Assembly (NCBI RefSeq): GCF_000512915.1
Contig: NZ_CP007034.1
Span: forward strand, 2,108,001-2,172,000
Direction: 5' to 3'
Source: Barnesiella viscericola DSM 18177
GTDB taxonomy: Bacteria; Bacteroidota; Bacteroidia; Bacteroidales; Barnesiellaceae
Length of the DNA: 64,000 nucleotides
Shown: positions 4,555 through 62,183 of the stretch, one piece after another
How positions within the stretch are numbered: position 1 is the stretch's first letter
Layout: every line of letters starts with the position of its first letter
Program-made: the position numbers and the translations under genes
Notes under the pieces: model-generated
The model's database searches: none
Seen by the model: only the letters and a program-made list of their open reading frames with translations
What the model was told of the DNA's origin: nothing

Positions 4555-7368
4555 ATGAAAAAAACATTATTGCTTATTTTCATTTTAAGCCAAGTGGTTG
4601 CAGCACAGGCAGCCGGATTGATTTCGGGAACGGTAAAAGAGGGGACCGAACAGCGCACGCTGCCGGGTGCCGTATTGCGGCTGGACAAGTTTAACCGCTA
4701 TACGGTTTCGGACAAGAACGGTTACTTTGAGTTTTTGAATGTGCCCGACGGAGACTATCGGGTCGAAGTGACCTATTTGGGATACGTGACGGCCTATCAA
4801 GAGGTGACGGTCAAGGAGGGTGTCAATTCGGTCATGGACTTTTTCCTGCAAGAGGATTCCAAGGTGCTCAACGAGGTAGTGGTCATGGGCGACCAGGCTC
4901 GCGGTCAGGCCAAGGCATTCAACCAGCAGAAGACCAATCGCAATGTGACCAATGTGATTTCGGCCGACCAGGTGGGACGTTTCCCCGACTCCAACATCGG
5001 CGATGCCTTGAAACGGGTCCCGGGTATCACCATGCAGAACGACCAGGGCGAGGCGCGCAACATCATTGTGCGGGGACTGGCCTCGGAGTTGAATTCGGTG
5101 ACCTTGAACGGCAACCGCATTCCCTCGGCCGAGGGCGATAACCGCAAGGTGCAGATGGACCTGATTCCCTCCGACATGATTCAGACCATTCGGGTGAACA
5201 AGACCTTGACGCCCGATATGGACGGCGACGCCATCGGCGGTTCGGTCGACCTGGTGACGCGTGCCGCATCGGGTGGTCAGCGCATCTCGCTCACGGCACT
5301 GGGCGGGTTCAACCCCATACGCAACGGGGCCACGGGTTCGGGTTCGTTTGTCTACTCCAACCGTTTCGCCGGCGACCGGGTGGGGGTCGTGCTCAGTGCT
5401 TCGTACATGAACAAGACCTACGGCTCGGACAACATCGAGGGGGTATGGGGCAAAGACGATGCCGACAACATCTTCCTCGAAGAGATGGACATTCGCAAAT
5501 ACGACGTGCAGCGTATCCGTCGCAGCATATCGCTCAATACCGACTGGAAAATCGATGCCAACAATACGATTGCAGCCGACCTCATGTACAACTGGCGCGA
5601 CGACCGGGAGAACCGCTTCCGCACCCAGTTCAAGGATGTCGAACCGGTTTACGACGAAACGACCGGGGCGATTGCCGGGTACACGGGTACCATATCGCGC
5701 GAGACCAAGGGTGGTATAGACAACTGCCGTAACAAGAATGCCCGCCTCGAAGACCAGCGGGTACAGTCCTATGCCCTCACGGGTACGCACCTGCTGTCGC
5801 CCAAGTTCGACCTGGACTGGAACCTCAGCTATGCCAAGGCACAGGAAGACCGGCCTCACGAGCGCTATATCGAGTATGTGCAGGAAGGAATTTCGATGAC
5901 CCAGGACCTCGCCGATCCGCGCAAGCCTTTCATCTCGGCACCGGGGCAGAGCGAGAGCGCTTTTCTCTTCGACAAGCTCACCGAGCAGCACGACTATACC
6001 GACGAGGACGAGTATTCGGCCAAAATCAATGCCCGGGTACCGCTCTCGGCCATCGCTTCGCAGAAGGGCCGTCTGCACTTTGGGTTGAAGGCTCGCATCA
6101 AGAGCAAGGAGCGCAACAACAATTTCTATGAATACACTCCCGTCGACGGGCTGCCCTCGCTGGCCGAGATGGACAAGGCCACTTACACCCAACCGCTCAC
6201 CCAGGGCGACCGCTATATACCGGGTTCGTTCGTGTCGAAACAGTGGCTGGGCAATGTCGACCTCAACAACCCGGCGCTCTTTGAGAAAGAGGCCGACCCT
6301 TCGGAATATCTGGTCAACAACTACCAGGCCAAGGAGCAGATTTATGCCGGTTACCTGCGTTGGGACCAGGATATTACTCCCGACCTCACCTTTATCGTGG
6401 GGGCCCGTATCGAACACACCCGGGTCGACTACGAGGGTAACTATGTGCTCGACGAGGATTATGACAATGCCGACCTGCGTCAGGTCAGGAACAGCTATAC
6501 TAACGTATTGCCCAATGTGACTGTTTGCTACACTCCGTTGAAAAATATGGTGCTCAGAGGGGTATTCTCGACAGCGTTGGCCCGTCCCAATTACTACGCG
6601 CTGATCCCCTTTGCCGATGTGAAATCGGAGGACCGCGAAATCTCGGCCGGAAATTCCGACTTGAAAGCCACCTACTCCTACAACGCCGACCTCATTGGCG
6701 AATATTACTTCCAGTCGGTGGGTATCGTTTCGGCCGGGCTTTTCTACAAGAATCTCGACAACTTCATCTATAACTACCTCGATGCCAACTACACGACCGA
6801 CAAGTTTGCCGCCGATTTCCCCGGCCTGCCCAATCCCATTCCCGCCGGTGAGCAGTGGCAGTTCCTGCGTCCGTTGAACGGTGACGAGGTGCATCTGTTC
6901 GGTGTCGAGCTCGCCTTCCAGCGCAAACTCGATTTCCTGCCCACGAGCTTCCTGCGCAATTTCAGCGTGATGCTCAACTATACCTATACCCACTCGATTA
7001 CCCAGGGTATCTACAACGAGGACGGCGAGGAGCGCACCGATGTCAGCTTCCCCGGCACCGCACCGCACATGTTCAACGCCTCGCTGGCCTGGGAGAACAA
7101 TCGTTTCTCGGCGCGTGTTTCTTTAAACTACACGGGCGGATATCTCGACGAGGTGGCCAGCGATGCCTTTGAAGACCGCTACTACGACAGCCAGCTCTTC
7201 CTCGACGCCAACGCTTCGTATCGCATTGCCGACGGATTGCGCATCTTTGCCGAGGCCAACAACCTCACCAACCAGCCGTTGCGCTACTATCAGGGCTCCA
7301 AGCAATACATGGCGCAGCTCGAATATTACAAGTCGACCTTCGACCTGGGTATCAAATGGGAGTTCTAA
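4555..7368 (+). CDS. TonB-dependent outer-membrane receptor with carboxypeptidase-regulatory-like domain
   Basis: A 937-residue receptor that should import a ligand across the outer membrane using TonB/ExbBD energy. Residues 1-20 are a signal peptide. Residues ~22-105 form a CarboxypepD_reg-like fold (ISGTVKEGTEQRTLPGAVL...). The plug domain follows (~120-240) with FPDSNIGDALKRVPGI and RGLASELNSVTLNG, then MDGDAIGGSVDLVT. The remainder is a 22-stranded barrel ending in the usual aromatic residue (KWEF). The plug pattern resembles the TonB-Xanth-Caul subgroup rather than SusC, and no SusD gene is present. The next gene, 38 bases downstream, is a secreted metallophosphoesterase, so the ligand may be a phosphorylated compound (inference). 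Confidence 0.93.
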   Translation: MKKTLLLIFILSQVVAAQAAGLISGTVKEGTEQRTLPGAVLRLDKFNRYTVSDKNGYFEFLNVPDGDYRVEVTYLGYVTAYQEVTVKEGVNSVMDFFLQEDSKVLNEVVVMGDQARGQAKAFNQQKTNRNVTNVISADQVGRFPDSNIGDALKRVPGITMQNDQGEARNIIVRGLASELNSVTLNGNRIPSAEGDNRKVQMDLIPSDMIQTIRVNKTLTPDMDGDAIGGSVDLVTRAASGGQRISLTALGGFNPIRNGATGSGSFVYSNRFAGDRVGVVLSASYMNKTYGSDNIEGVWGKDDADNIFLEEMDIRKYDVQRIRRSISLNTDWKIDANNTIAADLMYNWRDDRENRFRTQFKDVEPVYDETTGAIAGYTGTISRETKGGIDNCRNKNARLEDQRVQSYALTGTHLLSPKFDLDWNLSYAKAQEDRPHERYIEYVQEGISMTQDLADPRKPFISAPGQSESAFLFDKLTEQHDYTDEDEYSAKINARVPLSAIASQKGRLHFGLKARIKSKERNNNFYEYTPVDGLPSLAEMDKATYTQPLTQGDRYIPGSFVSKQWLGNVDLNNPALFEKEADPSEYLVNNYQAKEQIYAGYLRWDQDITPDLTFIVGARIEHTRVDYEGNYVLDEDYDNADLRQVRNSYTNVLPNVTVCYTPLKNMVLRGVFSTALARPNYYALIPFADVKSEDREISAGNSDLKATYSYNADLIGEYYFQSVGIVSAGLFYKNLDNFIYNYLDANYTTDKFAADFPGLPNPIPAGEQWQFLRPLNGDEVHLFGVELAFQRKLDFLPTSFLRNFSVMLNYTYTHSITQGIYNEDGEERTDVSFPGTAPHMFNASLAWENNRFSARVSLNYTGGYLDEVASDAFEDRYYDSQLFLDANASYRIADGLRIFAEANNLTNQPLRYYQGSKQYMAQLEYYKSTFDLGIKWEF

Positions 7369-7406
7369 TCAGACGAATGAATTTATAAACCTAAAAAGAT
7401 AGACAG

Positions 7407-8369
7407 ATGAAAACCGTTCAATTCTTTTCGGCTTTATTGTTGATGGGGGCCATCGTGAGTGTCTCCTCTTGCAAGCCGACGACCGACTCGACCAGCTCGC
7501 TTCCCGCCGAGGTCGAAGACAACTTTAACTTTATCGTGGCCAACGACCTGGGTCGCAACGGCTACTACGACCAGAAGATTATTGCCGAGCAGATGGGCGA
7601 AACGGCCGGTGAGATTGGCATCGAGTTTGTGGCCGCCGCCGGCGACATACACCACTTCGAGGGGGTAGCCAGTGTGAACGACCCGTTGTGGAATACCAAC
7701 TACGAGTATATCTATTCGCACCCCGAACTGATGCTCGACTGGTATCCCGTGTTGGGTAACCACGAATACCGGGGCAACACCCAGGCCGTGCTCGACTACT
7801 CGGGTGTGAGTCGTCGCTGGTGCATGCCCGCCCGGTATTACGACAAGAGCTTCGAGGTGGGCGACAGCTCGTCGCTCAAAGTCGTGTTCATCGACACGGC
7901 TCCGCTCATCGACAAGTACCACAAAGAGTCCGAAGAGTCGTACCGCGATGTAGCCGCACAAGATATGGAGGCTCAGTTGCACTGGATCGACTCGGTGTTG
8001 AATGCCTCGCACGAAACCTGGAAGATTGTGATAGGCCACCACCCCGTCTATGCCCAGACCCCGAAAGACGAAATCGAACGCGAGAACCTGCAACAACGGC
8101 TCGACCCGCTGTTGCGGAAATATGGTGTCGATATGTACATAGCCGGTCACATTCACAATTTCCAGCACATCAGGGTACCGGGAAGCGATGTTGACTACGT
8201 GGTCAACTCGTCGGCCTCGTTGAGCCGCAAGGTCAGCGAAATCGAGGGGACGCAGTATTGCAGCCCCGAGCCGGGATTTTCGGTGGTATCGGTATCCGAC
8301 AAGGATTTGAATCTCTATATGCTCGACAAGACCGGTCACGTGCTCCATACCGTCACGCGCACCAGATAA
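7407..8369 (+). CDS. Secreted metallophosphoesterase (purple acid phosphatase-like lipoprotein)
   Basis: A 320-residue calcineurin-like phosphoesterase. The N terminus is a lipoprotein signal with a putative lipobox ending at Cys22 (VSVSSC). The dinuclear metal motifs appear in order: VANDLGRNGYY, AAGDIHH, GNHEY, GHHPVY and GHIHNFQH, closest to the tartrate-resistant acid phosphatase (ACP5) style of the family. It probably hydrolyses phosphate monoesters at the cell surface or in the periplasm. It follows the TonB receptor by 38 bases with no terminator between them, so the two are likely one operon: phosphoester cleavage plus uptake. Confidence 0.88.
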   Translation: MKTVQFFSALLLMGAIVSVSSCKPTTDSTSSLPAEVEDNFNFIVANDLGRNGYYDQKIIAEQMGETAGEIGIEFVAAAGDIHHFEGVASVNDPLWNTNYEYIYSHPELMLDWYPVLGNHEYRGNTQAVLDYSGVSRRWCMPARYYDKSFEVGDSSSLKVVFIDTAPLIDKYHKESEESYRDVAAQDMEAQLHWIDSVLNASHETWKIVIGHHPVYAQTPKDEIERENLQQRLDPLLRKYGVDMYIAGHIHNFQHIRVPGSDVDYVVNSSASLSRKVSEIEGTQYCSPEPGFSVVSVSDKDLNLYMLDKTGHVLHTVTRTR

Positions 8370-9049: not shown

Positions 9050-9286
9050 CAAAGATAGTGAAAGGCGAGAGCCGAGGCAAACGAAAACGGAGTTTTCAAG
9101 TTTGACAGGGCCGAGCCGCCTCCTTTCTTCTGAAAAGATAGTGAAAGGCGAGAGCCGAGGCAAACGAAAACGGAGTTTTCAAGATTGACAGGGCCGAGCC
9201 GCCTCCTTTCTTCTGGAAAGATAGTGAAAGGCGAGAGCCGAGGCAAACGAAAACGGAGATTTCAAGTTTGACAGGGCCGAGCCGCC
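9050..9286 (-). repeat. Three tandem copies of an 83-bp promoter-bearing repeat
   Basis: Copies begin at 9051, 9134 and 9217 (period exactly 83; the last is cut short at about 9286). Read on the minus strand, each contains TTTG, a 20-nt spacer and TATCTTTN, a Bacteroidota promoter. Only the copy next to rsmD keeps the final G (TATCTTTG, 9050-9057; TTTG at 9078-9081). The other two end in T and C. The same unit recurs upstream of the CBS gene at 62.1 kb and, diverged, upstream of the SGNH gene at 14.5 kb. Apparent reading frames inside these repeats are artefacts. Confidence 0.9.
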
Positions 9287-52619: not shown

Positions 52620-53618
52620 ATGGTAAGCTACAAAGAATTAGGATTGGTAAACACCAGAGAGATGTTTGCCAAGGCTATCAAAGGCGGATATGCTATCCCT
52701 GCTTTCAACTTCAACAACATGGAACAGTTGCAGGCAATTATCCAAGCAGCCGTAGAAACGAAATCGCCTGTGATTCTGCAAGTATCGAAAGGCGCTCGTA
52801 ACTATGCCAACCAAACGTTGCTCCGTTATATGGCACAAGGCGCCGTAGAATATGCCAAAGAGTTGGGTTGCGAACATCCTCAAATCGTGTTGCACCTCGA
52901 CCACGGCGATTCGTTCGAATTGTGCAAATCGTGTATCGATACGGGTTTCTCTTCGGTGATGATCGACGGTTCTCACCTGCCTTATGAGGAGAACGTAGCC
53001 CTCACGAAAAAAGTGGTTGACTATGCACACCAGTTCGACGTAACGGTTGAAGGTGAACTTGGTGTTCTCGCTGGTGTTGAGGACGAGGTTTCGGCCGAGC
53101 ATCACACCTATACCAACCCCGAAGAGGTAATCGACTTCGCTCACCGCACGGGTTGCGATTCGTTGGCTATCTCGATCGGTACTTCGCACGGTGCCTACAA
53201 GTTCAAACCCGAACAATGCCACGTAGATCCCGCTACGGGTCGTTTGGTTCCTCCTCCCTTGGCATTCGACGTATTGGACGCCGTTATGGAGAAACTCCCG
53301 GGCTTCCCCATCGTACTGCACGGCTCTTCGTCGGTTCCCCAAGAAGAGGTCGACAAGATCAACAAATATGGAGGCAAACTCGAAGCTGCTATCGGTATCC
53401 CCGAAGAGGAGCTGCGTAAAGCTGCCAAATCGGCCGTTTGCAAAATCAACATCGACTCCGACAGCCGTCTGGCCATGACCGCTGCTATTCGCGAGGTATT
53501 CGCTACGAAACCCGCCGAGTTCGATCCTCGTAAATATCTGGGTCCGGCTCGTGACAACATGAAGAAACTCTACATTCACAAGATTGAGAATGTATTGGGT
53601 AGCGCCGGCAAACTCTAA
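52620..53618 (+). CDS. fba: Class II fructose-1,6-bisphosphate aldolase
   Basis: A 332-residue zinc-dependent aldolase of glycolysis and gluconeogenesis. Signatures: FNFNNMEQLQAIIQAA near the N terminus, VLHLDHGDSFELCKSCIDTGFSSVMIDGSH (zinc His and catalytic Asp), VEGELGVLAGVEDEV, SIGTSHGAYKF (zinc His) and VLHGSSSVP (zinc His), then KINIDSDSRLAMTAAIREV. It belongs to the long Fba group found in many anaerobes. Codons are strongly biased, as expected for high expression. It ends at a strong terminator. Confidence 0.96.
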   Translation: MVSYKELGLVNTREMFAKAIKGGYAIPAFNFNNMEQLQAIIQAAVETKSPVILQVSKGARNYANQTLLRYMAQGAVEYAKELGCEHPQIVLHLDHGDSFELCKSCIDTGFSSVMIDGSHLPYEENVALTKKVVDYAHQFDVTVEGELGVLAGVEDEVSAEHHTYTNPEEVIDFAHRTGCDSLAISIGTSHGAYKFKPEQCHVDPATGRLVPPPLAFDVLDAVMEKLPGFPIVLHGSSSVPQEEVDKINKYGGKLEAAIGIPEEELRKAAKSAVCKINIDSDSRLAMTAAIREVFATKPAEFDPRKYLGPARDNMKKLYIHKIENVLGSAGKL

Positions 53619-54183: not shown

Positions 54184-55053
54184 TTATATTTTTTCTTCAC
54201 TTGCAGGCTGCTTGGCGAGGGCTTCGGTGATCTTTTTCCCAGTCTCTTCGTATAGCCACAGGGCTCTTGGAACGTGAATGGCCCGGGCCGAAATGGGGAC
54301 ATGTTTTTCCTTTTTGAAGATTTCGCCGGTCACTCCGTAGACCTCGGGTGAGGTGGCGGCAAAGATGGCTCCGACGGCTCCCTCCTGAGGTGTACTGATA
54401 AAGGGGCGGAAAAAACGGTTGGCCAAGGGGTCGACCCACGAGTGCATGGTAATCATGTTGGTGTTGACTACCCCGGGGTCGGCAGCATTGACCCAAATGC
54501 CCCGAGGTCGCAATTCCTGGGCCAGCCGGGCGGTGTAGAGGGTAAGGGCCAGTTTCGATTTGCTGTAAGTCTCGAACCGTTTATAGTGGCGAGGCGATTC
54601 CTTAAAAAAGTCCTCGTCAATGTCTCCGATATACCGGGTGAGCGAGGTGGTGGTGACGATGCGGCTGCCCGGGTGCATGAGAGGAAGCAACAGTCGGGTG
54701 AGCAGTACGGTACCTATGTAGTTGACGCCGATGGTCGACTCAAACCCGTCGGCGGTTTGGCTGTAATGCTGATTCATGACTCCGGCATTGTTAATAAGCG
54801 TTTGTATCGATATGGACTCTTGCGAGAGGTGGTTGGCAAAAGCGATGATAGAGGCAAACGATGCCAGGTCGAGCGGCAACAGGGTGATGTCGGTATTGCC
54901 TGTCTTTTCGATAAGTTGTTGCTGCACGGGTTGCGATTTGGCCAGGTTGCGGCAGGCCATGATGATGGAAAGCCCTTGTTTGGCCAGCGCCTCGGTGATG
55001 GCCTGGCCTATGCTGCCGTTGGCTCCGGTAATGATATAATACTCCTTATTCAT
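54184..55053 (-). CDS. Short-chain dehydrogenase/reductase, last gene of the steroid-type operon
   Basis: A 289-residue NAD(P)-dependent dehydrogenase. The Rossmann motif is TGANGSIG (9-16), the structural motif NNAG (88-91), and the catalytic pair Tyr163/Lys167 lies in TYSKSKLAL. The sequence style (INNAGVMNQHYSQTADGFES, NYIGTVLLTRLLLPLM) resembles retinol-dehydrogenase/WW-oxidoreductase-like SDRs, which act on hydrophobic alcohols and ketones. The gene overlaps the previous SDR by eight bases. Together with the OYE and 5-alpha-reductase genes upstream it suggests action on sterol or bile acid hydroxyl/keto groups (inference). Which of the two SDRs acts at C3 cannot be decided from sequence. 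Confidence 0.85.
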   Translation of the reverse strand: MNKEYYIITGANGSIGQAITEALAKQGLSIIMACRNLAKSQPVQQQLIEKTGNTDITLLPLDLASFASIIAFANHLSQESISIQTLINNAGVMNQHYSQTADGFESTIGVNYIGTVLLTRLLLPLMHPGSRIVTTTSLTRYIGDIDEDFFKESPRHYKRFETYSKSKLALTLYTARLAQELRPRGIWVNAADPGVVNTNMITMHSWVDPLANRFFRPFISTPQEGAVGAIFAATSPEVYGVTGEIFKKEKHVPISARAIHVPRALWLYEETGKKITEALAKQPASEEKI

Positions 55054-55843
55054 TGAGCATGCGGTGTTTGACTATGAGACGAACCCGGGCAGGCATAACC
55101 GACGCCAGCGGTATGAGCAGTCGATTGAACAGTCCGGGGATAAGTTGTTTCTTTCCGTGAAAGAGAGCGTTGAGCGCTTTGCGCACAAGGCGTTCGGGTG
55201 TCATGAGTATGCCCAGCTTTACCCCCAATTTCAGCAGGCGGGGCGGAAGCCCGTAGAGGCCGGTAGCTACTCCGCCGGGACACACGACGGTGGCATGGAC
55301 ACCATAGTCGCTCAACTCGTAGGCCAGTGCCCGTGTGAACACCCGTATGTAGGCTTTTGTCGCGGTGTAGAGCGCTATGCCGGGATAGGGGGTCCAGCAG
55401 GAGAGCGACGACATGTTGAGCAGGTAGCCGTGGTGTCGTTGGCACATGTCGTTGGCAAAGAGGCGTGAGAGTCGGGTTACTGTGCCCATGTGCAGTTGAA
55501 TCATGGTCTCGATTTTGGCCGGGTCGGTGCGTACCACTTCACGGAAGGAGAAGATGCCGGCGTTGTTGATGAGTATATCGATGACCAGCCCTTTTTCCCG
55601 GCAATATTGATAAAGCTCGTCGGCCGCTTCGGGTCGGGCCAGGTCCATGCACAGGGTTTCGACCGGTACTCGATAGTCGGTAGCTATGCGGGTCGATTCG
55701 CGGTCGAGGTCGTCGCGGTCGATGCTCACCATCACAAGGGCTGCCCCCCAGGCTGCCAGTTGTCGGGCAAATTCGAGCCCGATACCCGAGCTGGCCCCGG
55801 TAACGAGAGCTGTGCATGGCGATAGGTCTCTATTGCGGGTCAT
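55046..55843 (-). CDS. Short-chain dehydrogenase/reductase, candidate hydroxysteroid dehydrogenase
   Basis: A 265-residue SDR. TGASSGIG (15-22) binds the cofactor, NNAG lies at 93-96, a serine in NMSSLS (~145-148) and Tyr159/Lys163 in YTATKAY complete the active site. After beta2 the sequence is SIDRDDL; the acidic start of that loop favours NAD(H), though this is weak evidence. The pattern is closest to the DltE/HSD17B12-like group, several of which act on steroids or long acyl substrates. It overlaps both neighbours (14 and 8 bases), so the operon is tightly coupled. It is a candidate 3-beta-hydroxysteroid dehydrogenase by context. Confidence 0.87.
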   Translation of the reverse strand: MTRNRDLSPCTALVTGASSGIGLEFARQLAAWGAALVMVSIDRDDLDRESTRIATDYRVPVETLCMDLARPEAADELYQYCREKGLVIDILINNAGIFSFREVVRTDPAKIETMIQLHMGTVTRLSRLFANDMCQRHHGYLLNMSSLSCWTPYPGIALYTATKAYIRVFTRALAYELSDYGVHATVVCPGGVATGLYGLPPRLLKLGVKLGILMTPERLVRKALNALFHGKKQLIPGLFNRLLIPLASVMPARVRLIVKHRMLNE

Positions 55844-57080
55844 GGCGGTGAATCTTTTCTATCTCCTTGACGATGCACGGGGGCAGTTGTCCTTCGAGGT
55901 GTTTGTGGCAGGCCATTTCGATGGAGTACATGCGGGCTATGCAGTAGTTGGTGTGGTCGCAGCCGCAGCGCACCTCGTCCTCGTTTTTCATGCGGTTCAC
56001 GAAGTCGGGTTCGTTGATGAGGGCCCGTCCCATCTGCACGAACTCGAAGCCGTGGTTGAGTACCTTGTCGATGGTGGGCCGGGAGACCAGACCGCCCACG
56101 TAGATGAGGGGCAGTTTGAGGGCTTCGCGGAATTTGAGTGCATCGTCGAGGAAATAGGCCTCGCGGAACGGCACGGTGGGTATCATGAACCGGCCGGCCA
56201 GTTTCACACCGTATTTGAGCCACCAGGTCTTCATGTAGTAGGTGAGGGTGGTGATGGGCATCTCGCCCCGCATCACATACATGGGGGCTTTGCTCACGAA
56301 GCCACCGCTCAGCACCAGGGCGTGGGCTCCCAGTTGTTCGAGTTCGCGGGCAATGACGATACCCTCGTCGATTTCGATACCCCCCTTGAAGCCGTCGCGC
56401 ATGTTGGTTTTGACGATGACGGCCATGTCGTTGCCGGCCGCCTTCATCACCTGTTCCATGCACATGCGCATGAACCGCATGCGGTTGTCGAGCGAGCCTC
56501 CGTATTCGTCATGGCGGTGGTTGGTATAAGGCGAGAGGAACTGGCTGATGAGGTAACCGTGTCCGGCGTGAATCTCGACGGCGTCGAATCCTGCATCGCG
56601 AGCGTTGTTGACCGCGTCGCCAAAGGACCGGGCCATCGCCTCGATTTCGTCCTTGTGCATACCCCGCACAAAGGTGGGCGAATAGAGGTTGAATCCGGTC
56701 GAGGCCGAGATGGGAATCTGGCCTGCCGTGCTGCGGTGCGACATGTTGCCGCAGTGGCCCAACTGAATGGAGGCCTTGGCCCCTTCGGCATGAATGGCGT
56801 CGGTGATGCGTCGCAGCGGTTTCACGATTTCGGGGCGCATCCACAACTGATGTTTGAAGGAGAGCCCGTTGCGGGTCACCGAGGCATAGGCCAGCGTAGT
56901 CATGCCTATACCGCCGGCAGCCACACTGCGGTGGTAGTCATACAGCTTTTGGGTAGGTGCGTTGTGGTCGCACATACCCTCGAAGGCGGCCGACCTGATG
57001 GTGCGGTTGCGCAGGGTGACGGGGCCTATCGAGGCCGGCGTGAAGAGTATGGACGGTTGTGAAGATGAGTCGGTATTCAT
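55830..57080 (-). CDS. Old Yellow Enzyme family NADH:flavin oxidoreductase (5-beta-reductase-like)
   Basis: A 416-residue FMN-dependent TIM-barrel enoate reductase. Signatures: FTPASIGPVTLRNRTIRSA at the N terminus, ASIQLGHCGNMSH, VEIHAGHGYLISQFLSPYTN (the His/His substrate-binding pair, ~171-178), DEYGGSLDNRMRF and LIYVGGLVSRPT. A cysteine-rich tail (Cys372, 374, 380, 391, 402) resembles the 4Fe-4S region of BaiCD/enoate reductases. However, the FAD/NAD(P)H domain of those ~640-residue enzymes is missing, so electrons must come from a separate donor or directly from NAD(P)H. In the context of a 5-alpha-reductase-like gene it is a candidate delta4-3-ketosteroid reductase. Confidence 0.9.
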   Translation of the reverse strand: MNTDSSSQPSILFTPASIGPVTLRNRTIRSAAFEGMCDHNAPTQKLYDYHRSVAAGGIGMTTLAYASVTRNGLSFKHQLWMRPEIVKPLRRITDAIHAEGAKASIQLGHCGNMSHRSTAGQIPISASTGFNLYSPTFVRGMHKDEIEAMARSFGDAVNNARDAGFDAVEIHAGHGYLISQFLSPYTNHRHDEYGGSLDNRMRFMRMCMEQVMKAAGNDMAVIVKTNMRDGFKGGIEIDEGIVIARELEQLGAHALVLSGGFVSKAPMYVMRGEMPITTLTYYMKTWWLKYGVKLAGRFMIPTVPFREAYFLDDALKFREALKLPLIYVGGLVSRPTIDKVLNHGFEFVQMGRALINEPDFVNRMKNEDEVRCGCDHTNYCIARMYSIEMACHKHLEGQLPPCIVKEIEKIHRHDPQ

Positions 57081-57084
57081 GATT

Positions 57085-57858
57085 TCAATAGATGAAAGGA
57101 ATTATCTTTTTGCGTTTCTCTCGTGTGAACTCCTCGCCGAACTCCTGGGTGTAGCGCTTGTAGAGTGAGGCCGAGCGGGGAGCCAGGTTGGCAAATGTCC
57201 ACCAGGCAAAGACGGCACCCGACCACGACCAGGTGAAGATGGCGAATCCTACCCATTCGAGAAATTCGCCGAAGTAGTTGGCCGACGAAACCCAGCGGAA
57301 CATGCCGCCCCGCGGGATATAGTGACGCCGGTCGCCCGGCTTGCGTAGGTGACGTATGATGGAGTCGGACTGGATATTGATGTACATGCCGGCCACGAAG
57401 GCAATCACCCCGATGATGAACTGGGGCGAGGTGAACCAGGCCGGGGTATAGTAGTCGAGCGGCGAAATGTAGAAAATCCACCCTCCCTGCATGAAGGCGT
57501 TAAGCAGGTTGAACACGACACCCATGCTCACGATGCTGAGGGGCATGCGGCTGTTCCCCTTGATGAGGAAGGGGAAGATGAACGAGCGTTGGAAGTAGTG
57601 CACCTCGAACAGCACCAGAAAGGCGATGCGCACCGGGTCGTAGCGATATTCGTCGGGGGAGAGCAGCCACAGCACGAGCATGGCAATGAATACCGGGGCC
57701 TCCATCACCACCCACCCGATGCGGTTGGGCAGCGAGACTCCCCACTTGCGGTCGAAAAGCATGCCGTAACCCGCACTCACGAAATGGAGGGCAATAAACA
57801 CGATCAAGGCCGTGACGGCCATTACGATTAAGAAAATATTGAATGTGGCGGTTTCCAT
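57085..57858 (-). CDS. Steroid 5-alpha-reductase family membrane protein
   Basis: A 257-residue polytopic membrane protein of the 3-oxo-5-alpha-steroid 4-dehydrogenase (SRD5A) family, with about seven helices. Family residues are visible: Trp-x-x-Met-Glu-x-Pro (Glu ~53) and FEVHYFQRSFIFP (Tyr ~88), equivalent to the catalytic Glu57 and Tyr91 of human SRD5A2. The C-terminal NADPH-binding signature is RGGMFRWVSSANYFGEFLEW, with GDRRHYIPRGG before it. It should reduce the delta4 double bond of 3-keto steroids or bile acids to the 5-alpha form. I start at the ATG at 57858; a TTG lies 15 bases upstream. It is the first gene of the operon behind the promoter at 57896-57927. Confidence 0.88.
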   Translation of the reverse strand: METATFNIFLIVMAVTALIVFIALHFVSAGYGMLFDRKWGVSLPNRIGWVVMEAPVFIAMLVLWLLSPDEYRYDPVRIAFLVLFEVHYFQRSFIFPFLIKGNSRMPLSIVSMGVVFNLLNAFMQGGWIFYISPLDYYTPAWFTSPQFIIGVIAFVAGMYINIQSDSIIRHLRKPGDRRHYIPRGGMFRWVSSANYFGEFLEWVGFAIFTWSWSGAVFAWWTFANLAPRSASLYKRYTQEFGEEFTREKRKKIIPFIY

Positions 57859-57895
57859 GGTCTGCCAAAACAAAAAATAGATAGAATTGTTATTC

Positions 57896-57927
57896 CAAAG
57901 ATAGAGAAAAGCGAGATTAGAAACAAA
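57896..57927 (-). promoter_or_regulatory. Promoter of the steroid-type operon
   Basis: Minus-strand TTTG (57924-57927), 20 nt, TATCTTTG (57896-57903), an exact consensus match 38 bases before the ATG. Confidence 0.82.
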
Positions 57928-58197
57928 CCTGAATCTGGATTTTACAGTTTGTTCATGCCAAGTCGCCTCTGTTTTTACAAAGATATATAATTTTGATAAG
58001 ATAAATTTCTATTTAAATACTTTTCTTAAACGTCTCGTATTTTTACAGAAAGAAACATTTTGCCGGCTTATTATAAAGCGGAGTAAATACCTTGAAGGGG
58101 TGAAACAGAGCGGATAAATATTTAAAAATAGATAATTAGCTCGAATAAAATCGATGGAGCGTTTAATTTTGCAGCATTTGAAATTGGATAAAACGAT
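57928..58197. other. Intergenic region before the PCMD gene
   Basis: It is AT-rich. TAATTTTG at 58164-58171 is the likely -7 element of the PCMD gene, 27 bases before its ATG; no -33 box is clear. No gene is seen. Confidence 0.5.
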
Positions 58198-59169
58198 ATG
58201 AAAAAGATGCAGAGAACTACATTGATGGCAGTTTTGTGCGGAGTATTGGCCGTGGAGAATGCCTGTGCTCAGCATGTAGAGCCGCTGGCCTTTGCCGACT
58301 TTGAACATTGGGTGACTCGCGAAATCAAGGAGTCGGCCCTCCTGGGAGGCAAGACCAAGACCGTCTATGCCATTGCGCCTACTCGCCATATCCAGGGGAA
58401 CAAGGCCTATAAGAATATGGGAGGCTCGCCGTGGGCTTCGTCGAACGTGATGGCCAACGTGATGGGAGTAGTGAAGGCCAGCAACACCGTCCGTCCCGAG
58501 AAGCGCGAAGGGGGTGGCACCTGCGCCTGCATGGAGACGGTTATCGAGGATTGCTGCGTGTTGGGCATGATGAATCTGCATGTGCTGGTGAGCGGCAGTA
58601 TCTTCCTGGGCGAGGTGAACGAACCCATTCGCTCGACCAACAGCCCTTACAGCAAGATGGAGATGGGAATCCCCTTCACCAAACGTCCTACCCGCTTGAT
58701 TTTCGATTATAAATACAAGGCTTCGCCCGACAATTTTCGCACCCAGTCGACCGGGTTCAGTGCCCGCAAGCAGTTGCCCGGCCGCGACAACGGCGAGGTC
58801 TATATTCTGTTGCAACATCGTTGGGAAGATGCCGACGGCAACGTCTACGCCCATCGGGTGGGCACTGGCCGGGAACGTTACGGCAAGAGTACTGCCGGGT
58901 GGGTGAACGGTCACAGCATACCCATTCACTATGGCGATATTACCGACAAACCGTTCTACAAGTCCTACATGGGGCTTATTCCCGAGGAGAACTCCTACTA
59001 CTGCCGCAACAGCAAGGGCAAGATGGTGCCTGTGGTCGAGGTGGGTTGGGGCAAACCCGATGAGCCGGTCACCCACATGCTGGTGATGGCTTCGGCTACC
59101 TGCGGTACCGCTTATGTGGGCGGGTTGGGCAGTACCCTCTGGATTGACAACATCGCGTTGGGGTATTGA
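58198..59169 (+). CDS. PCMD domain-containing exported protein
   Basis: A 323-residue protein with a signal peptide (residues 1-24, ...VENACAQHV). The body matches the putative carbohydrate metabolism domain (PCMD) common in Bacteroidota: LAFADFEHWVTREIKES and, in the middle, FTKRPTRLIFDYKYKASPD, then TAYVGGLGSTLWIDNIAL at the end, a typical jelly-roll closing strand. Several members are surface lectin-like proteins. The region with CACMETVIEDCC is cysteine-rich, which is unusual for an exported protein. It is divergent from the steroid-type operon, so the two may share control (inference). Confidence 0.8.
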   Translation: MKKMQRTTLMAVLCGVLAVENACAQHVEPLAFADFEHWVTREIKESALLGGKTKTVYAIAPTRHIQGNKAYKNMGGSPWASSNVMANVMGVVKASNTVRPEKREGGGTCACMETVIEDCCVLGMMNLHVLVSGSIFLGEVNEPIRSTNSPYSKMEMGIPFTKRPTRLIFDYKYKASPDNFRTQSTGFSARKQLPGRDNGEVYILLQHRWEDADGNVYAHRVGTGRERYGKSTAGWVNGHSIPIHYGDITDKPFYKSYMGLIPEENSYYCRNSKGKMVPVVEVGWGKPDEPVTHMLVMASATCGTAYVGGLGSTLWIDNIALGY

Positions 59170-62040: not shown

Positions 62041-62183
62041 ATAGCCAAACTTGAAAACTGTGTTTTCGTTTGCCTCTACTCTCACCTTTCACTATCTTTG
62101 TAGAAGATAGGAGTCGGCTCGGCCTTGTCAAACTTGAAAACACCGTTTTCGTTTGCCACGGCTCTCGCCTTTCACTATCTTTG
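62041..62183 (+). repeat. Two tandem copies of the promoter-bearing repeat upstream of the CBS gene
   Basis: The copies end in intact TATCTTTG at 62093-62100 and 62176-62183 (period 83, as at 9.1 kb). Each has TTTG 20 nt upstream (62069-62072 and 62152-62155). The second copy is nearly identical to the 9.1-kb unit read on the minus strand (TTGAAAAC..CCGTTTTCG core). Both can act as promoters for the CBS/nadK pair. Confidence 0.88.

Follow-up and report, generated by a model that had tools for sequence, protein, structure and literature searches.

A four-gene operon and the gene opposite it

We analysed a stretch of 64,000 nucleotides (the window) from Barnesiella viscericola DSM 18177 (contig NZ_CP007034.1, positions 2,108,001 to 2,172,000), whose genome is a single contig of 3,076,856 bases. 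Four consecutive minus-strand genes in the window form an operon that is likely, judging from the proteins it encodes, to carry out steroid A-ring reduction. The first encodes a protein of 257 amino acids (aa), a predicted membrane steroid 5-alpha-reductase of the SRD5A type (5AR; 57085..57858). It is followed by a short flavin ene-reductase of the Old Yellow Enzyme family (OYE; 416 aa, 55830..57080), which is nearest to the iron-sulphur (Fe-S) BaiCD/FadH type and is a candidate 5-beta-reductase, or an enzyme of the reverse reaction. The last two genes encode short-chain dehydrogenases, SDR1 (265 aa, 55046..55843), a candidate 3-hydroxysteroid dehydrogenase (HSDH), and SDR2 (289 aa, 54184..55053). 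The start and stop codons of all four open reading frames (ORFs) were verified; 5AR starts with ATG, and an in-frame TTG at 57873 would lengthen it by 5 aa. 5AR and OYE are 4 bases apart, OYE and SDR1 overlap by 14 bases, and SDR1 and SDR2 overlap by 8. On one side the operon is flanked by a fructose-bisphosphate aldolase gene (52620-53618). On the other side lies a divergent, plus-strand gene for a 323-aa protein with a PF13201 'putative carbohydrate metabolism' domain (PCMD; 58198..59169), a probably secreted protein that its linkage makes a candidate steroid-handling partner.

The order PCMD - 5AR - OYE - SDR1 - SDR2 was identical in seven of seven related loci (L002-L008). Thus, the operon appears to be more than a chance arrangement. 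Six of these loci also had the aldolase gene; we did not find it within L007 (12.6 kb). An earlier note on this DNA had described four minus-strand genes behind a single promoter, with overlaps of 8 and 14 bases. We located each of the ORFs, the overlaps and the promoter as described, and each protein matched its Pfam family. The note was right about the core genes, but it overlooked the divergent PCMD gene.

The operon promoter is of the Bacteroidota type, TTTG-N20-TATCTTTG, and lies on the minus strand at 57896..57927. The pattern TTTG-N18-22-TANNTTTG occurred 12 times in the window versus 0.45 expected from 100 shuffles. When the alignment of nine Barnesiella-type sequences was read by eye, this promoter copy was visible in three of them, and a second TAnnTTTG element pointing at the operon (57978..57985, minus strand) was kept in all nine. 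A TAnnTTTG element on the plus strand (58164..58171) points at the PCMD gene; it reads TAATTTTG in the window, and TAATTTTG or TAACTTTG in nine of nine aligned sequences. A scan for the sigma-70 consensus returned 8 promoter-like sites versus 3.8 expected. It was uninformative, and the TAnnTTTG pattern was used instead. Near-identical full promoters of the form TTTGCC...CCTTTCACTATCTTTG stand elsewhere in the window, at 9050-9081 (minus strand), 62069-62100 and 62152-62183 (both plus strand). Two of these three are 83 bases apart, which suggests a duplicated promoter region.

Residues and relatives of the four enzymes

The 5AR protein matched Pfam Steroid_dh at 4.2e-43 (147.4 bits against a gathering score of 22.6), and it matched the structures of PbSRD5A (7c83, 1.3e-51) and human SRD5A2 (7bw1, 1.7e-40) over almost its full length. 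We aligned 120 Bacteroidota homologues, 100 of the window type (at least 48% identity) and 20 of a distant type (36-44% identity). Glu53 and Tyr88, which the earlier note had correctly picked out as the catalytic pair, align with E57 and Y91 of human SRD5A2 and were present in 120 of 120 homologues. The same was true of N161, D165, R172, E198, R228 and Y236, and N194 was present in 118. SRD5A enzymes are described as transferring a hydride of NADPH to the alpha face at C5 while Glu and Tyr hold the C3 carbonyl (PMC7815742, PMC7591894; papers are cited by PMC number, each for the excerpt that bears on the point). Additionally, the window protein, which belongs to the same domain family as human SRD5A2 and PbSRD5A, has seven of the eight SRD5A2 residues that contact NADPH (N160, D164, R171, N193, E197, R227, H231 and Y235; PMC7815742), all but H231. 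The closest named sequences among the matches listed, at 95-96% identity, come from Barnesiella sp. An22, Candidatus Barnesiella excrementavium and Barnesiella sp. An55; An22 and An55 are B. viscericola chicken-caecum isolates in PMC6069880. All nine genomes surveyed in the genus, the window's own counted, carry 5AR.

OYE had been called a short Old Yellow Enzyme. Its Oxidored_FMN barrel (1e-56) agrees with that name, but the nearest curated models are Fe-S types and a cysteine-bearing tail is conserved. The closest NCBIfam models were mycofact_OYE_2 (3e-58) and BaiCD (5e-56), with the short NamA type behind at 1e-43. These scores, 190-198 bits, fall far below the equivalog cut-offs of 793 and 825 (190.1 versus 825 for BaiCD), and all 38 sequences of our OYE alignment matched both BaiCD and NamA. 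The active-site motif H171, H174 and Y176 was invariant in that alignment. Across a wider set of 90 homologues, C110 was present in every sequence and C374, C380 and C391 were each present in 89 (one gap). The Fe-S cysteine motif of FadH and BaiCD is C-x2-C-x3-C-x11-C; the spacing in OYE, C374-x5-C380-x10-C391 together with C110, departs from it.

The tail gave mixed matches. The NCBIfam models for mycofact_OYE_2, bilirubin reductase and BaiCD extend into it (4e-8 to 9e-7), and the C-terminal 146 aa had no FadH-type match in the PDB (six weak matches, best E 0.45). The structural model of OYE has a predicted local distance difference test score (pLDDT) of 89, with residues 381-385 under 50. 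Its best Foldseek match was 2-naphthoyl-CoA reductase (6qkr, E 2.4e-28, template modelling (TM) score 0.77 by query length); a short ordinary OYE was a close second (9iuv, 9.6e-28, TM 0.74), which weighs against an Fe-S reading. OYE resembles 2-naphthoyl-CoA reductase and the BaiCD/FadH Fe-S flavoenzymes in its flavin mononucleotide (FMN) barrel, its His/His/Tyr motif and its cysteine-rich tail past the barrel. Unlike the BaiCD/FadH type, it is 416 aa long where the models run to about 640, and it has its own cysteine spacing with an invariant C110. OYE may hold an Fe-S cluster that is fed by an external donor.

The two short-chain dehydrogenases were also correctly named earlier, with adh_short matches of 3.6e-39 (SDR1) and 1.2e-31 (SDR2). 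Both have the SDR fold with Tyr-x3-Lys. In SDR1, NNAG, Y159 and K163 were kept at 95% or more among 83 matched ORFs, and in SDR2, S137, Y163 and K167 were kept at 95% or more among 36 matched ORFs, some of which are possibly SDR1-like. The best 60 PDB rows for SDR1 held no HSDH. For SDR2 the sole match of this kind among the rows listed was a distant carbonyl reductase/20-beta-HSD (1n5d, 9e-11). An assignment of SDR1 and SDR2 as 3-beta or 3-alpha enzymes from NCBIfam and PDB matches was tried and dropped, as the rows listed held no informative match.

Distribution of the operon genes and of PCMD

Our locus set comprised 100 loci with a window-type 5AR (the best 80 of 216 matches and 20 loci from further genomes), which fell into 33 5AR lineages on clustering at 80%. 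Of the 92 loci whose sequence ran on for 1.6 kb or more past 5AR, 88 had OYE as the next gene in the same orientation. Among the 86 loci with 4.5 kb, 22 had both SDRs, 54 had SDR1 alone, 4 had SDR2 alone, 2 had OYE without an SDR, and 4 had no OYE. We also searched an even sample of 295 Bacteroidales genomes (E cut-offs of 1e-20 for 5AR and 1e-60 for OYE). Sixty-three carried a 5AR, of the window type in 35 and of the distant type in 28. OYE was found in 50 genomes: 34 of the 35 with a window-type 5AR, 12 of the 28 with a distant type, and 4 without 5AR at that threshold. It was not found in the 20 distant-type loci (7.8-14 kb each). Thus, tight pairing with OYE marks the window-type 5AR, and a looser association reaches further. 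Outside Bacteroidales 5AR is rare; it was found in three genomes besides the window's own among 296 sampled across the phylum.

Some loci differ in other ways. Beside the distant 5AR (L111-L130, from 20 Bacteroidales genomes) there was no adjacent OYE, and an extended SDR stood alongside in 13 of the 20 loci; one of these, when scanned, was nearest to the HpnA, SdmB and 3Beta_HSD models. This is a different 5AR pairing, perhaps related to sterols or hopanoids. In three genomes (G083, G186 and G277) an OYE homologue of 40-41% identity lies about 9 kb from a distant-type 5AR, beyond those loci, which hints at a larger cluster. Two genomes (G009 and G127) have two 5AR copies each, at 55-59% identity; the copies at L104 and L105 lack an adjacent OYE. 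Between OYE and SDR1, locus L019 has a 484-aa gene (6087-7538; family also in L021) that weakly matches MGH1-like and 6-hairpin glycosidase domains.

PCMD matched PF13201 at 1e-26. Its N-terminal helix ends just ahead of Gln25, a residue that was invariant in 16 sequences, and the protein is probably secreted on this sequence evidence. Twenty-three of the 100 loci had a PCMD relative no more than 6 kb from 5AR. In nine of these loci the relative was divergent and upstream (L002-L008, L015 and L050), in three it was upstream in the same orientation as 5AR (L013, L025 and L071), and in 11, all of a single lineage, it was downstream in that orientation. PCMD relatives turned up in 46 genomes of the even sample, 28 of them among the 35 with a window-type 5AR and the remaining 18 elsewhere; the 28 genomes whose sole 5AR type is the distant one had none. 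Co-occurrence with the window-type 5AR gave a Fisher odds ratio of 54 (p 9e-21, shared ancestry uncorrected). The best structural model of PCMD has a pLDDT of 81, and the five models span 81 to 49. Its five matches at E 0.001 or better were all uncharacterised 'putative glycoside hydrolases', and weaker ones were to carbohydrate-binding modules; these model matches mean that PCMD may have a sugar-related role. Our search of open-licence papers found none on the function of this domain. The window's genome has three more PF13201 matches, in large ORFs close together (G000:C1:710276-717226) and well away from the operon.

PCMD relatives also occur in a second setting. At 20 PCMD loci away from 5AR, a neighbouring sulfotransferase (PF13469) recurred in five, and most of those five also carry CysN-, CysD-, APS-kinase- and transporter-like genes. 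A sulfotransferase query matched 54 of the 295 Bacteroidales genomes, 24 of them at 59% identity or more. In 12 of those 24 genomes, from five families, the sulfotransferase gene was followed at 15-190 bp by PCMD on the same strand; none of the weaker matches (under 59%, the rest of the 54 genomes) had PCMD directly downstream. The arrangement resembles the Bt_0411-0416 cluster of B. thetaiotaomicron, where BT_0416 makes cholesterol sulfate (PMC9417993), in that other Bacteroidales have a PCMD relative after a PF13469 sulfotransferase with the same accompanying genes. It differs in that the query had no match in nine of nine genomes of the window's genus, and the likeness to the Bt_0411-0416 cluster is one of layout. 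BT_0417 is not mentioned in the text of PMC9417993. In one genome (G114) the sulfotransferase (C5:58976-60064) and the 5AR-OYE operon (L095, 5AR at 6436-7200) are separated by about 6 kb, so that the two modules lie near each other. We read these findings as PCMD serving steroid metabolism in both the 5AR and the sulfotransferase settings.

A proposed model for steroid A-ring reduction

Based on these data, we propose that the operon is a steroid A-ring reduction/isomerisation module and that PCMD is likely its accessory; we put the probability of this at about 0.72. The genes, residues, conservation and linkage are observed; every catalytic step below, like the direction of OYE and the role and location of PCMD, is inferred. 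In our model, membrane-bound 5AR would use NADPH to reduce the 4,5 double bond of 3-oxo-delta4 steroids on the alpha face, which would give 5-alpha (flat, 'allo') 3-oxo steroids. OYE, with its FMN, would act on that bond from the beta face, either as a 5-beta-reductase or in reverse. If it runs in reverse, 5-beta 3-oxo steroids such as 3-oxolithocholate (3-oxoLCA, where LCA is lithocholate) would become the delta4 enone, and OYE and 5AR jointly would turn bent 5-beta steroids into flat 5-alpha ones. SDR1 and SDR2 would reduce or oxidise the 3-oxo group, perhaps also another position. PCMD, divergent and probably secreted, would meet the steroid outside the cytoplasm. A bolder form of the model, of which we are less sure, is that OYE is an Fe-S ene-reductase minus its NAD(P)H half and that it and 5AR together act as an A/B-ring cis-trans isomerase.

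By gene content and description, the window operon is of an already published Bacteroidales kind that combines 5AR, a putative 5-beta-reductase (5BR) and 3-beta-HSDH. P. merdae, O. laneus and B. dorei convert 3-oxo-delta4-LCA to isoalloLCA (PMC10382948). The 5AR of P. merdae shares a cluster with a predicted 3-beta-HSDH and a BaiCD/BaiH-like NADH:flavin oxidoreductase that was hypothesised to be the 5-beta-reductase (PMC10382948). The window has 5AR, a BaiCD-like OYE and an SDR contiguous on one strand in the same way, and shares its SRD5A homologue, BaiCD/BaiH-like oxidoreductase and predicted 3-HSDH with the cluster of P. merdae and Odoribacteraceae (Sato et al. 2021, via PMC10382948 and PMC12789469). 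It differs in having two SDRs, and the excerpts do not mention a divergent PCMD gene for that cluster. Alistipes is among the 5AR bearers (PMC12789469). A study of chicken-caecum Bacteroidetes that included two B. viscericola reported the 5-alpha enzyme in all isolates except two Odoribacter and P. distasonis (PMC6069880). Our literature search returned no paper, among the matches listed, that names isoalloLCA together with Barnesiella; Barnesiella and 5-alpha-reductase were co-mentioned, among the matches listed, in food and curcumin reviews, judging by title.

Several of our observations pull the other way. The Gln of the Q-E-Y motif (human Q56) is Met (M52) in all 120 5AR homologues, and changing Q56 to Ala or Leu inactivates human SRD5A2 (PMC7815742). 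At the position of H231 the window 5AR has Leu; 97 of 100 window-type proteins have Leu or Ile there, versus 14 of 20 distant-type ones with His; human SRD5A2 and PbSRD5A differ from the window 5AR at both sites. As Met replaces Gln in all aligned homologues, these proteins would have a variant active site inside the SRD5A domain family, and judged by its sequence the window 5AR is an SRD5A-family protein with a changed neighbour of the catalytic Glu, no textbook copy. OYE is without an electron-input domain: Oxidored_FMN is its only Pfam match, the protein ends after the barrel, and we found no flavin adenine dinucleotide (FAD)/NAD(P)H domain. A sequence-profile search of solved structures ranked YqjM (1.3e-46) over FadH (1ps9, 1.7e-39). 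No HSDH was among the best 25 NCBIfam models for SDR1 or SDR2. As 12 of the 28 distant-5AR genomes have an OYE homologue, three of them about 9 kb away, the association of OYE with 5AR is not confined to the window type. PCMD and 5AR are adjacent only in four Barnesiella among the 28 genomes with both, and within 13 kb in two more. The earlier note had likened the operon to a steroid and bile acid reductase cluster. The match of the gene set to the P. merdae kind and the kept Glu and Tyr sustain the cluster part of that reading; the OYE and dehydrogenase models, and loci whose titles name rumen, reticulum or abomasum, make the rest less certain.

Those loci bear on the natural substrate. Titles of 6 of 80 related loci name the rumen (L077), the reticulum (L044) or the abomasum (L028, L052, L053 and L074), upstream of bile entry, where no bile is expected; carry-over in metagenome-assembled genomes may account for some. 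This argues against bile acids as the sole substrate, and other steroids are probably used too. It is conceivable, though unlikely in our view, that the operon naturally acts on sterols from the diet, or on triterpenoid-like 3-oxo enones of plants or fungi, and that bile acids are incidental. Disruption of the P. merdae 5AR, however, blocked alloLCA derivatives (PMC10382948), of the 80 titles, which are truncated and mostly give no gut site, 13 mention caecum, colon, rectum or faeces, and the window's genome has a gene of the bile salt hydrolase/acylase family PF02275 (one match, 6.9e-68), a family also matched in 4 of 14 control genomes. The substrates thus probably include gut bile acids, and need not be limited to them. 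We also doubt, to a similar degree, that 5AR and OYE both run forward on the same delta4 enone and yield a 5-alpha/5-beta mixture as an electron sink, with no cis-trans isomerisation. Both families are ene-reductases, and the use of a steroid to take up electrons in the anaerobic gut has been discussed for cholesterol (PMC13079761), but several strains have been reported to convert 5-beta 3-oxoLCA or isoLCA to isoalloLCA (PMC10382948), which needs the reverse direction; an indirect pathway has been proposed (PMC9645264). An action on the bacterium's own non-steroid isoprenoid, such as a membrane lipid or quinone precursor, seems improbable. The hopanoid- and sterol-like SDR beside the distant 5AR would fit it, but the window 5AR has a BaiCD-like neighbour instead, and a 5AR of any type in 63 of 295 genomes is patchy for a membrane-lipid function.

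We hypothesize, somewhat short of even odds, that PCMD is a dedicated steroid-handling factor that binds, solubilises or delivers bile acids or sterols at the envelope, that it is common to the A-ring reduction and sulfonation modules, and that its carbohydrate-related name is wrong. That it is an unrelated neighbour kept by chance has about the same claim on us. In 22 of the 28 genomes with both genes, PCMD and 5AR were not within 15 kb on one contig (many are draft assemblies), and both the Pfam name and the nearest model matches point to carbohydrates. Against chance stand its position near 5AR in 5 of 33 lineages, versus at most 2 for any other non-core family within 6.5 kb, and its recurrence at most 200 bp past the end of a sulfotransferase gene. 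Three label changes for 5AR linkage and three for sulfotransferase linkage were needed in the tree built from 45 PCMD proteins; the starred branches force three and two, respectively, where a change may be a loss, so that the 5AR linkage might be one gain and two losses. That the linkage is an artefact of a single clade was considered and is unsupported by the lineage count and the tree, though most sampled genomes lack the linkage.

If the operon is the A-ring module that we propose, Barnesiella would be another genus that makes flat (allo) steroids and bile acids. IsoalloLCA has been reported to inhibit Gram-positive pathogens (PMC10382948) and to affect host T cells (PMC13008668). Of greater use would be the PCMD linkage, through which a family for which we found no functional paper would gain a testable role in the contact of Bacteroidota with poorly soluble steroids. 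The Met-for-Gln site would make it simple to test which elements of the SRD5A mechanism are indispensable.

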